From: Armatimonadetes bacterium DC
GTDB taxonomy: Bacteria; Armatimonadota; Fimbriimonadia; Fimbriimonadales; GBS-DC
Assembly (NCBI GenBank): GCA_001442985.1
Contig: LDYB01000009.1
Coordinates: forward strand, 1 to 64,000
DNA length: 64,000 nucleotides
Direction: 5' to 3'
The notes below the pieces were generated by a model, which searched no databases, was not told the DNA's origin, and was given only the letters and a program-made list of their open reading frames with translations. Position 1 is the first letter of the stretch; the number at the start of each line of letters is the position of its first letter. Shown here piece after piece: positions 39,194 to 43,684 of this stretch. Both the position numbers and the translations under genes were made by a program.

Positions 39194-40050
39194 CAGAGTT
39201 CACCTCGCAGCTCGATCGCCACGAATTGAAGTGTACCCTGATTCCCCCGAAACACGAGCGCCGCGCGAAAGCGTTCCGCAAAGGTTTGTTGCAACGCCAC
39301 GCGCCAGCTGAAGGTGTTCGCGTGGCTCTGATACGCCAGCCGCAGGTCGGGGCGCCATCGCGACCCGACTGGCTCCCAGCGCAGGCTGAGCCAGTGGGTG
39401 TCGGGCAGCGAGTCGCTTTCGGTGTAGACCCACTCCAGCAGCAGGGTGCGCTCCAATATAGGTGGGCGCCAATCGGCTCCGTAGAGCGTCTCATAGCCCT
39501 GCGGCGCGCGCGGCTCTTCGGGCAGTTGCCAGAGCGCGAAGGCGTGCGGGTCGGTGCCAAAGTGTCGCCCGACGCCCACCGAAACGCCCCCGTTCTGCGT
39601 GCCCACCCGAACCAGCACCCCCTGCTGGCGGTCTTTACCGTTGAACACATAGGCGACACGCATCGGCAGGTCGCCTATCGCGAAGCGCGTGGGCGATTGC
39701 GCCGCCACCACGCTCTCGTTGAGCAGGGTTCCTGCGCCGAAGGGAGCGTAAAATTTGCCCACACGCCAGCCCCCCACACGCTCCACATAAAACTCGTCGA
39801 GCGCGGTGCGTGTGCGGTCGCCCCGAATGTTTTGCAACCGCTGGGCGATATAGGCTCCGTACCCCGAATCGTGATAAACCTGAAGCGAGACGGTAGCGTG
39901 CTGGGCAAGGTCGTTGTACCAGAGCCAGCGTGTAGTTTCGGAGTCAGCACGCACCTGTGTGAGCAGGCGCACCCCGAAAAACGCGGTGGGCGGCTGGCTG
40001 TAGCCCGCGCCGATAAGAAACGCCAGCAGGCAGAGGTTAGCCGTTCTCAC
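39193..40050 (-). CDS. Exported beta-rich, outer-membrane-like protein
   Basis: The 285-residue protein begins at GTG 40050, 14 bp inside the pspA end, and has a short signal peptide (LCLLAFLIGAGYSQ). The rest is rich in alternating aromatic strands (WLWYNDLAQHATVSLQVYHD; TLQFVAIELRGEL at the end), typical of outer-membrane beta-barrels. No family recognised. The long upstream open frame is the pspA region read in another frame. Confidence 0.65.
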   Translation of the reverse strand: MRTANLCLLAFLIGAGYSQPPTAFFGVRLLTQVRADSETTRWLWYNDLAQHATVSLQVYHDSGYGAYIAQRLQNIRGDRTRTALDEFYVERVGGWRVGKFYAPFGAGTLLNESVVAAQSPTRFAIGDLPMRVAYVFNGKDRQQGVLVRVGTQNGGVSVGVGRHFGTDPHAFALWQLPEEPRAPQGYETLYGADWRPPILERTLLLEWVYTESDSLPDTHWLSLRWEPVGSRWRPDLRLAYQSHANTFSWRVALQQTFAERFRAALVFRGNQGTLQFVAIELRGEL

Positions 40051-40846
40051 GCGCGCTGCTGTCGCCTGAGGAGGTCTGAATCTTGCGCTCCAGCTCTTCC
40101 AGTTCTTTGAGCACATCGGCGTCGGCGACGCTCGCCTGCACGGTGGGTTGCACCGGTTGCTCGGTTGTGGCGGGGCGCAATCCCATGCGCTCCTCGATTC
40201 GGCGCAGCTCCTCTTCGGCTTCAGCGTCCAGTTGCGCGTCCTGAAGCGCGGCGACCCGCCCCTGCAGGCTCTGGGCTGCCATCTCCTGTCGCGCGGCAGC
40301 CTCGGCTTCCGCGCGCTGGATGCGCTGTTCTGCCGCGCCCCAGCTCGATTCGAGGCTCTCGATCGTAATCCCTTCCAGCGCTTTGTTGATGGCGGTCTGA
40401 ATCTGGGCTTGCTTCCAGCGCGCTTTGAGCGCCAGCGCCTGCGCCGTGCGCACCCGCACCTCCTCTTCCTGTCGCCGAATCGCTTGCTTGACCGACTCAA
40501 CGGTCTCAATTGCCTGCTGGAGCGAGGCTTTGAGGGATTCCAGCGCGCTCTCCTGCGCCTTCTTCTCGCGAATCAGTTGCAGAGCGAGGTCGCGTTTGCC
40601 CTGCTGGAGTGCCAGCTCCACATTGCGCTCCAGTTCGCGCACGCGGCGCTCCAGTTTGTCGACTTCTGCCTGCAGGAGGTTCTTCTGCGTGATAGCCTGG
40701 ATGGCGCGCTCCCGATTGCGAGCCAGCATTTCCTGCATCTCCCGACGCGCCTGATCCAGCAAAACCTCAGGATCCTCCAGCTGCTCCACCTTCCCGGTGA
40801 CCCATGCCACCAGATATCGCCAAAGTCGTGCCAGTGCCTTGAACAT
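40037..40846 (-). CDS. pspA: PspA/IM30 family membrane-protection protein
   Basis: The 269-residue, almost fully helical coiled-coil protein starts MFKALARLWRYLVAWV (amphipathic membrane-binding helix), then EDPEVLLDQARREMQEML as in the family. PspA/Vipp1 proteins polymerise on stressed inner membranes to preserve the proton motive force. A Gln/Thr-rich tail follows the core. First gene of a four-gene operon with an outer-membrane-like protein, a J-like protein and a glycosyltransferase; no pspF or other psp partners are seen. Confidence 0.92.
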   Translation of the reverse strand: MFKALARLWRYLVAWVTGKVEQLEDPEVLLDQARREMQEMLARNRERAIQAITQKNLLQAEVDKLERRVRELERNVELALQQGKRDLALQLIREKKAQESALESLKASLQQAIETVESVKQAIRRQEEEVRVRTAQALALKARWKQAQIQTAINKALEGITIESLESSWGAAEQRIQRAEAEAAARQEMAAQSLQGRVAALQDAQLDAEAEEELRRIEERMGLRPATTEQPVQPTVQASVADADVLKELEELERKIQTSSGDSSARENG

Positions 40847-40948: not shown

Positions 40949-42199
40949 ATGCTGAGAAGAATAGAGGTGCTTTCGTACAAATGTCTCCGCTACATTCAGC
41001 AGGAGCTGGCGCCGTTTCACATTCTCGTAGGGCCCAACGCCAGCGGGAAAAGCTCGTTTCTGGATGTACTGGTGTTTCTGCAGGACATGCTTCGCAACGG
41101 TGTGGAGAGGGCGGTTCGCAAGCGTGCGCGAACTGTGCGGGAACTGACATGGCAGATGCGCTCGGACTATTTCGAGTTTGCCGTTGAGTTTTCACTTCCG
41201 GGAGAGATATACCGTAACGGTTATGAATCAATACGCTATGAAATCCGTGTTGGCGTCGATGATCAGCATGGGGGCATAACGCTATTGGTGGAAAACCTCT
41301 GGCTCCAAAGAGAAGGATGGCACGACGCTGGTAAAACTGCTGAGATGCCCTCGCGGTTTCCTGAGCCGTCTCGCGCTCCCTCGAAAATAGTGGCAGAGCC
41401 CCGCAAACGCACGCCGCTTGGTCGCCGGAAGGTGATGTCGCGGACACCTGACGGGCGCATCTACTTCCGCTCGGAAACAACGGACTGGAATTTTCCCCTT
41501 CGCCCGATGCGCGAGCAGGCAGGACTGACCCTCATTCCCGATGAGGAGCGTTTCCCGGCAAGTTTCTGGCTTCAGAGGGCACTTCTTGAAGGCGTTCATT
41601 TCCTGATGCTCTATAGTCGGGCAATGCGTGAGCCGTGTGCGCCTGACGCTCCCGAACGGTTCCAGCTGGACGGCTCGAATCTTCCGGTAGTCGCGAGTCG
41701 CCTCGCCCAGAAACACCCCGAACGGTTCAACCAGTGGATTGCACATGTGCAAACCGTTCTGCCAGAGGTCAAAACGATTCATGTGGAAGAACGCCCTGAA
41801 GACCGTTCTCGTTATTTGGTGATGGAAACTTTCCAGGGAACGCGCATTCCGTCGTGGCTTCTCTCCGATGGCACACTCAGGTTTCTTGCCCTCAGCTTGC
41901 TACCCTACATCTCAGAGTCGCCAGAGATTTACATCATTGAAGAGCCTGAGAACGGGATTCATCCCCGAGCGATTGAAGCGATCTATCAGTCGCTTTCCTC
42001 TCTCTACGCGGGGCAGGCGCTATGTGCTACTCATTCGCCTATCTTGCTCAATCTGGCGCAGCCCGAAGACCTGCTCTGTTTCACACGAAACAGCGAGGGC
42101 GCTACCGAGGTGGTGCGTGGCGATCAGCATCCTCGGCTCAAAGCATGGCGTAAAGAGGTGGCGCTGGGCGACCTGCTTGCCAGCGGAGTGCTGGGATGA
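40949..42199 (+). CDS. AAA family ATPase of the OLD/RecF-like type
   Basis: The 416-residue protein has Walker A GPNASGKS (28-35), the ABC-type Walker B region YIIEEPENGIHPRAIEAI (around residue 330) and a THSP switch near 361, the AAA_21/AAA_15 pattern of OLD, Gabija and PARIS ATPases. No nuclease domain is attached. It overlaps the next gene by 4 bp (ATGA), so the pair forms one functional unit. The frame open upstream runs through pspA in antisense and is not used. Confidence 0.85.
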   Translation: MLRRIEVLSYKCLRYIQQELAPFHILVGPNASGKSSFLDVLVFLQDMLRNGVERAVRKRARTVRELTWQMRSDYFEFAVEFSLPGEIYRNGYESIRYEIRVGVDDQHGGITLLVENLWLQREGWHDAGKTAEMPSRFPEPSRAPSKIVAEPRKRTPLGRRKVMSRTPDGRIYFRSETTDWNFPLRPMREQAGLTLIPDEERFPASFWLQRALLEGVHFLMLYSRAMREPCAPDAPERFQLDGSNLPVVASRLAQKHPERFNQWIAHVQTVLPEVKTIHVEERPEDRSRYLVMETFQGTRIPSWLLSDGTLRFLALSLLPYISESPEIYIIEEPENGIHPRAIEAIYQSLSSLYAGQALCATHSPILLNLAQPEDLLCFTRNSEGATEVVRGDQHPRLKAWRKEVALGDLLASGVLG

Positions 42200-42714
42200 A
42201 GAAAGACCTTGTGATTCTAGTTGCTGATAGGGATATGGAGCAAACCCTTCTTGGGCTTCTCAGTCGCCCAAAAGCACTCGCAATCCGCGAAATTTCTTTC
42301 GACATCTTTATCCACCCCGAGCATGATCCAGGTGTCTTTCTGCAAGGAGCCGATTTTCTGCGCTCTCTCGCTGACCAGTACTGTTTCGCTCTTGCAATGC
42401 TTGATAGGGAAGGGTGTGGTCAAGAAAGGCGTTCCCCAGAAGAGCTAGAAAATGACCTTCAGGCACGCCTTGAAAGTGCTGGTTGGGAAGGGCGCTGTGC
42501 CGTAGTGGTGCTGAACCCAGAACTGGAGGCGTGGGTGTTTTCCAGCTCAACGCATGTTGCAGAGGTCATAGCAAGCGGAGATACTGAGTTATACGAACGC
42601 AAGGTGTCCGCGACTCCCAAAAATTCTCTTGGAAAGCCCGAGCGTCCGAAGGAACTGATGGAGTCGCTTTTGCGGGAAAAACGCATTCCCCGTTCCTCAT
42701 CATTGTATCGCTAG
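42196..42714 (+). CDS. ATPase partner protein, possibly TOPRIM-like; ends at an in-frame amber codon
   Basis: The 172-residue product starts LVILVADRDMEQTLLGLLSR and has FALAMLDREGCGQE and AVVVLNPELEAWVF. The arrangement of acidic residues after hydrophobic strands suggests a TOPRIM-like or DUF4276-like fold, which in the PARIS system accompanies the AAA ATPase. It ends at TAG (42712-42714) after SSSLYR, but the frame continues for 28 sense codons with a plausible helical tail (see 42715-42801). TAG may derive from CAG by one transition. The gene may be truncated, recently inactivated, or read through. Confidence 0.7.
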   Translation: MKKDLVILVADRDMEQTLLGLLSRPKALAIREISFDIFIHPEHDPGVFLQGADFLRSLADQYCFALAMLDREGCGQERRSPEELENDLQARLESAGWEGRCAVVVLNPELEAWVFSSSTHVAEVIASGDTELYERKVSATPKNSLGKPERPKELMESLLREKRIPRSSSLYR

Positions 42715-42801
42715 CTCGCAGAAAAAGTGAGTTTGAAACAGTGCCACGACCGTGCCTTCAATAAGCTTCAGGACACTCTGCAGGGATGGTTCGGAAGGTA
42801 A
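42715..42801 (+). pseudogene. In-frame C-terminal tail after the amber codon
   Basis: Directly after TAG at 42712-42714 the same frame reads LAEKVSLKQCHD, then RAFNKLQDTLQGWFGR, ending at TAA 42799-42801. The amphipathic, Leu-rich composition is consistent with native coding sequence. It lies before the dapD promoter and is not needed by any other gene. Confidence 0.6.
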
Positions 42802-42850: not shown

Positions 42851-43684
42851 ATGCATCCGATTCAAGCCCAGTTCGAAACGCTGAAGACGCTGACCGAGCC
42901 AACCTCCGAAGCCCTCATATGGTTTGAAGCGTTTGTGAGCGCGCTGGAAGAGGGCACCATCCGCGCCGCCGAACCCGACCCCGAAAGCCTCACAGGCTGG
43001 CGTGTGAACGCATGGGTCAAGCAAGCCATCCTGCTGGGGTTCCGGTGGGGCGTGTTGCAAGAAGTCGAGTGGGGCGGGGCGCGCTTTTTAGATAAGCACC
43101 TCTACCCACCACGCCCGTTCCGCCCTGAGGAGGGCGTGCGGATTGTGCCAGGAGGCACGGCAATACGGCGCGGGGCATGCCTCAAACCGGGTGTGGTGGT
43201 GATGCCGCCCTCCTATGTGAATGTGGGCGCCTATGTGGGCGAGGGCACGATGGTCGATTCCCATGTGCTGGTCGGCTCGTGCGCCCAGATTGGGGCGCGG
43301 GTTCACCTGAGCGCAGGCTGCCAGATTGGCGGCGTGCTGGAACCTGTGGGCGCGCTCCCCGTGATTGTGGAAGACGAAGCGATGATAGGCGGTTGTACGG
43401 GCATTTTTGAGGGCACGATTGTGAAGCGTCGCGCGGTGATTGGCGCAGGCGTCGTGCTGACGCGTAGCATGCCCCTTTACGACCTCGTGCATGAACGGGT
43501 GATACGCGCGGAAGGCGACTTGCCGCTGATTGTGCCTGAAGGCGCGGTGGTGGTGGCGGGCGCACGCCCTGCCCAGAGCGAATTTGGGCGCCAGCACCAG
43601 CTGCATCTCTATGCGCCCGTGATTGTGAAGTATCGCGACGCCCGCACCGACGCCCAGACCGCCCTCGAAGACGCGCTCCGCTGA
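42851..43684 (+). CDS. dapD: 2,3,4,5-tetrahydropyridine-2,6-dicarboxylate N-succinyltransferase
   Basis: It acts in the succinylase route to diaminopimelate and lysine, thus to peptidoglycan. The 277-residue protein has an N-terminal helical domain (MHPIQAQFETLKTL; WVKQAILLGFR) and a left-handed beta-helix of hexapeptide repeats (VNVGAYVGEGTMVDSH, GARVHLSAGCQIGGVLEP). Start at 42851 is fixed by the -10 box 7 nt before it. The longer upstream frame would include the tail of the ATPase partner. Confidence 0.93.
   Translation: MHPIQAQFETLKTLTEPTSEALIWFEAFVSALEEGTIRAAEPDPESLTGWRVNAWVKQAILLGFRWGVLQEVEWGGARFLDKHLYPPRPFRPEEGVRIVPGGTAIRRGACLKPGVVVMPPSYVNVGAYVGEGTMVDSHVLVGSCAQIGARVHLSAGCQIGGVLEPVGALPVIVEDEAMIGGCTGIFEGTIVKRRAVIGAGVVLTRSMPLYDLVHERVIRAEGDLPLIVPEGAVVVAGARPAQSEFGRQHQLHLYAPVIVKYRDARTDAQTALEDALR

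Follow-up and report, generated by a model that had tools for sequence, protein, structure and literature searches.

A premature amber codon probably marks the recent inactivation of a standalone MAD3-MAD4 defence pair

The stretch of DNA analysed here, hereafter the window, is 64,000 nucleotides long and contains an AAA ATPase gene followed by a partner gene that ends at an amber codon, after which the same frame stays open for another 28 codons. The initial annotation, made from the letters alone, took this run for natural coding sequence cut off from a component of a suspected defence module, and offered recent inactivation, a tolerated C-terminal truncation, amber suppression, or a sequencing or assembly error as explanations. 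This raises the questions of what the two genes are, whether the tail is a genuine part of the second one, and which of the explanations fits best.

Results

The reading frame was confirmed to the base. It opens with ATG at 42196, reaches TAG at 42712-42714 directly after SSSLYR, continues with sense codons over 42715-42798 and closes with TAA at 42799-42801; there is this one TAG and no shift of frame. The stop of the ATPase gene and the start of its partner overlap as ATGA, and because the ATG of the one lies over the TGA of the other, translation of the two genes is probably coupled. The features of the locus are as follows.

40037-40846, minus strand: PspA/IM30 gene, flanking the MAD3-MAD4 pair
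40949..42199, plus strand: MAD3 ATPase gene (NCBIfam NF047739, 471.4 bits; Pfam AAA_21)
42196..42714, plus strand: mad4 as encoded, 172 aa (NCBIfam NF047734, 161.7 bits; weak Pfam DUF4276)
42712..42714, plus strand: premature amber TAG, codon 173 of mad4, in an alignment column that is variable among homologues
42715..42801, plus strand: lost MAD4 C-terminal tail of 28 codons with the ancestral stop TAA (family and tail profiles)
42851-43684: DapD gene, flanking the pair on the other side

The suspected defence module can be given a name, as both proteins match NCBIfam families above the cut-off. MAD3 is an intact AAA_21-type ATPase by Pfam (416 aa, 0 internal stops) with the Walker A motif GPNASGKSS and the Walker B motif IYIIEEPENGIHP, and its score compares with a cut-off of 420. 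MAD4 as encoded compares with a curated cut-off of 160 and covers profile positions 1-178 of 206, and its gene lies directly 3' of the MAD3 gene, as family membership asks. When a residue is put in place of the TAG, the match rises to 210.2 bits and covers positions 1-205 of 206. Since the encoded protein ends at profile position 178 of 206 and the remainder is found in the DNA 3' of the TAG, we class the mad4 product, on its sequence, as a truncated copy of the NF047734 family without intact membership. MAD3 and MAD4 have been described as proteins of MADS, the methylation-associated defence system (Maestri et al. 2024, as cited in PMC11980395), and MAD3-MAD4 is a named anti-phage pair, to which the window pair is assigned by family match.

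The length of the tail alone is unremarkable, given that an open run of 28 codons has a chance of about 0.26 with equal codon use. We therefore judge it by its content, using a tail-only profile made from 80 homologues with the window copy left out; these are the best 80 of 187 relatives found in GTDB contigs with a mid-protein pattern. The window tail scores 60.1 bits on this profile, compared with 9.5 bits for the best of 1000 shuffled tails, and the 124 other 28-codon extensions that follow long open reading frames of the window reach at most 7.3 bits. This score, and the gain of the whole protein on read-through, bear out the reading of the tail as natural coding sequence; the DNA 3' of the TAG is genuine MAD4.

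Truncation is likewise upheld by the homologues. All 80 homologues, which come from many phyla, carry the tail in strongly conserved form, in a set that favours full-length copies because the best 80 of 187 were picked by score. Homologues that all end at the same place, with dissimilar tails, had been named as evidence against truncation; the homologues examined all run on through the tail, none of the best 80 of 187 has a stop at the amber column, and none was seen to end there. Within the phylum of the window, MAD4 matches occur in 25 of 291 genomes, and the complete copies reach profile position 202-206. The amber column is occupied by Q in 33 of the best 80 of 187 homologues, followed by E (18), D (9), R (7), K (5), S (5) and other residues (3), and CAG is the commonest codon (17 of 80). 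With Gln and CAG both commonest there, the proposed CAG to TAG transition is the simplest origin of the amber codon, although others are possible.

The tail bears no mark of age. Its identity to the homologues, given that of the body, ranks 74th of 81 copies with no excess divergence, and the near-invariant residues A175, V178, C183, D185, F188, L195, W198 and F199 are all kept, of which F188, W198 and F199 are essentially invariant in the best 80 of 187 homologues. As the tail is thus undecayed and without sign of relaxed constraint, either the stop is very recent or the DNA consensus is wrong at this position. A search of 20 other genomes of the phylum for close DNA copies of the locus returned nothing beyond the window itself.

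An AlphaFold2 model of read-through MAD4 (mean pLDDT 93.7) places the amber codon within helix 169-177 and the last helix, 186-199 (pLDDT about 98), in the lost tail. The pattern of conserved residues A187/F188, L191, L195 and W198/F199 along one face suggests that, in the model, this helix packs on the core. Conserved acids follow strands 1, 3 and 4 (D11/E15, D70 and E109/E111), all upstream of the amber codon, and their placement would suit a metal-dependent nuclease. The 172-residue protein is modelled with a mean pLDDT of 95.5 and keeps the core fold without the tail, but AlphaFold2 is insensitive to truncation, so a confident model does not imply a stable protein, and the fold of truncated MAD4 was set aside as a test of functional against broken. 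Against the PDB, Foldseek returned no solved structure for the MAD4 model at E <= 0.001, and we accordingly do not claim a Toprim-type fold.

How the cell reads the codon was assessed in the genome of the window itself. If the amber were suppressed, or read through in a programmed way, full-length MAD4 of 201 residues would still be made, and both the conservation of the tail, as if translated, and the tolerance of many residues at the amber column would agree with that. An Rfam search gave 48 tRNA hits, however, which ARAGORN resolved into 46 distinct tRNAs, and none of these has a CUA, UUA or UCA anticodon in a genome rated 95% complete, in which a tRNA gene could be missing. RF1 is present (498.6 bits, PVT motif), as is an RF2-like protein with an SPF motif, and TAG terminates three other genes of the window. 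Without a CUA tRNA, with RF1 present and with TAG ending other genes, suppression or recoding in this genome is unlikely, and the absence of homologues with a stop at the column (best 80 of 187) means that there is no conserved recoding site. Taken as an account of this locus, readthrough is thus very improbable. We give just as little credence to a leaky switch, by which low readthrough would yield a little full-length MAD4, limiting a costly effector, and the tail would be conserved by selection on the protein so made. The weakest of the hits, a 63-base tRNA-like element (G000:C15:37541-37603, L070:142-204), has a shortened D arm and scores 31.7 bits, above the Rfam cut-off, with no call by ARAGORN; it was rejected as an amber suppressor, as its anticodon loop CUCAUAC reads CAU.

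Two explanations leave the codon a stop, or remove it altogether. A tolerated truncation, in which 172-residue MAD4 still works or works differently, draws on the intact MAD3 and on a predicted core that keeps its fold without the tail; with the likely active-site acids lying before the stop, residual function is possible. It is disfavoured by the conservation of the tail in all of the best 80 of 187 homologues, down to the essentially invariant aromatic residues of the last helix, and no natural homologue among those examined ends at the window amber, so that we regard it as decidedly unlikely. A tail without any decay is also what would be seen if the TAG were an error of the consensus or the assembly, or came from a minority strain whose variant became fixed in the consensus while mad4 is intact in the population; the genome is a 26-contig assembly. 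The change is nevertheless a clean substitution at a unique, non-repetitive site rather than a homopolymer indel, and genuine nonsense and frameshift copies of mad4 exist in other genomes; an error is unlikely, though it deserves some weight.

Discussion

We consider a recent nonsense mutation, probably inactivating a standalone MAD3-MAD4 module, the most likely explanation of this locus. A very recent point mutation would have created the amber at codon 173, and the cell would make a 172-residue MAD4 that is cut in the middle of helix 169-177 and lacks 29 conserved residues at its end, among them the conserved helix 186-199. By analogy with similar pairs, MAD3, as an AbiEii/OLD-like AAA_21 ATPase, would sense infection and activate the MAD4 effector. 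Loss of helix 186-199 would most likely destabilise MAD4 or its contact with MAD3, and the module has probably lost its activity or part of it, at a first stage of decay. What was observed is that MAD4 is truncated with respect to each homologue examined, that MAD3 is intact, that the tail has not decayed and that there is no sign of suppression; that MAD4 no longer works, and what the pair does in this organism, we infer. The window mad4 is an ordinary pseudogene, or nearly so, and presents no new mechanism or kind of system. Its interest is that the loss of a defence module would here be caught at its first step, with one base changed and both MAD3 and the tail untouched.

Broken copies are found elsewhere. 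In an uncultured Acidobacteriota (L120:6001-6600), one of the best 80 homologues, an independent in-frame amber lies at residue 153 of the matched segment of mad4, upstream of a tail that is present, and the MAD3 upstream is intact. Three genomes of the same phylum as the window have decayed further: mad4 is frameshifted with no MAD3 nearby in G106 (L074, G106:C29:22648-23258), split, with a stop in MAD3 as well, in G247 (L025/L029, G247:C288), and reduced to a short fragment with stops in G123 (L026, G123:C44). In this series the window copy can be placed first, as the earliest step in decay of this kind. Together with the Acidobacteriota copy and the broken copies in the phylum, it suggests frequent gain of MAD3-MAD4 pairs followed by their breakage, a turnover expected of costly defence genes. 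At L013/G099, L148 and L150 mad4 is intact, and it is the MAD3 gene beside it that carries a frameshift or an interruption of about 1.9 kb.

No close relatives were found in viral contigs, phage records or plasmids; one plasmid match reached 32%. An empty insertion site was sought at the DapD loci of family relatives, where the neighbouring genes are not conserved.

The window pair resembles MADS in that both proteins exceed the curated cut-offs, in the same gene order and with the ATGA overlap. It differs in its amber-truncated MAD4 and in its surroundings: the eight neighbours (PspA, DapD, an amidase, a DnaJ-like protein, a glycosyltransferase, an oxidoreductase and two without family) gave no PADLOC hit at E <= 1e-10, other MADS or defence genes are absent there, and a complete MADS system is not present among them. 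PARIS, OLD/Gabija and other pairs of an AAA_21 ATPase with an effector have the ATPase class in common with MAD3, which the AriA, GajA and Old models match, but window MAD4 is not AriB/DUF4435 by sequence.

A further comparison is with HEC-01, which in PADLOC comprises the HEC-01A ATPase and HEC-01B, candidates set within Hma systems. Window MAD3 scores 168 bits on the HEC-01A models against 117 bits on the PADLOC mad3 model; HEC-01B matches window MAD4 weakly (14-22 bits), the read-through form reaching profile position 205. The window pair differs in having no HmaB or HmaC among the tested neighbours and in standing alone between the PspA and DapD genes.

Across the homologous loci, MAD3 lies immediately 5' of MAD4 in almost all cases, and most loci have no other recurrent neighbour, whereas at about 7 of the 80 loci the pair has HmaB- and/or HmaC-like neighbours, in agreement with the PADLOC setting of HEC-01. 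MAD3-MAD4 thus occurs chiefly as a unit of two genes, mostly standalone outside full MADS, that can also lie within larger methylation-linked systems. The pair adjoins HmaB-like and/or HmaC-like genes at L142:1015-10181, L087, L129, L135, L149, L153, L083 and L097, the HmaB-like gene there encoding a DUF1156 methyltransferase and the HmaC-like gene a DUF499 ATPase. At L149, a 390-residue open reading frame (L149:3248-4417) between the HmaB-like gene and MAD3 matches the DarT toxin over residues 7-200 and the DarG antitoxin over residues 213-380, and is thus a fused DarT-DarG.
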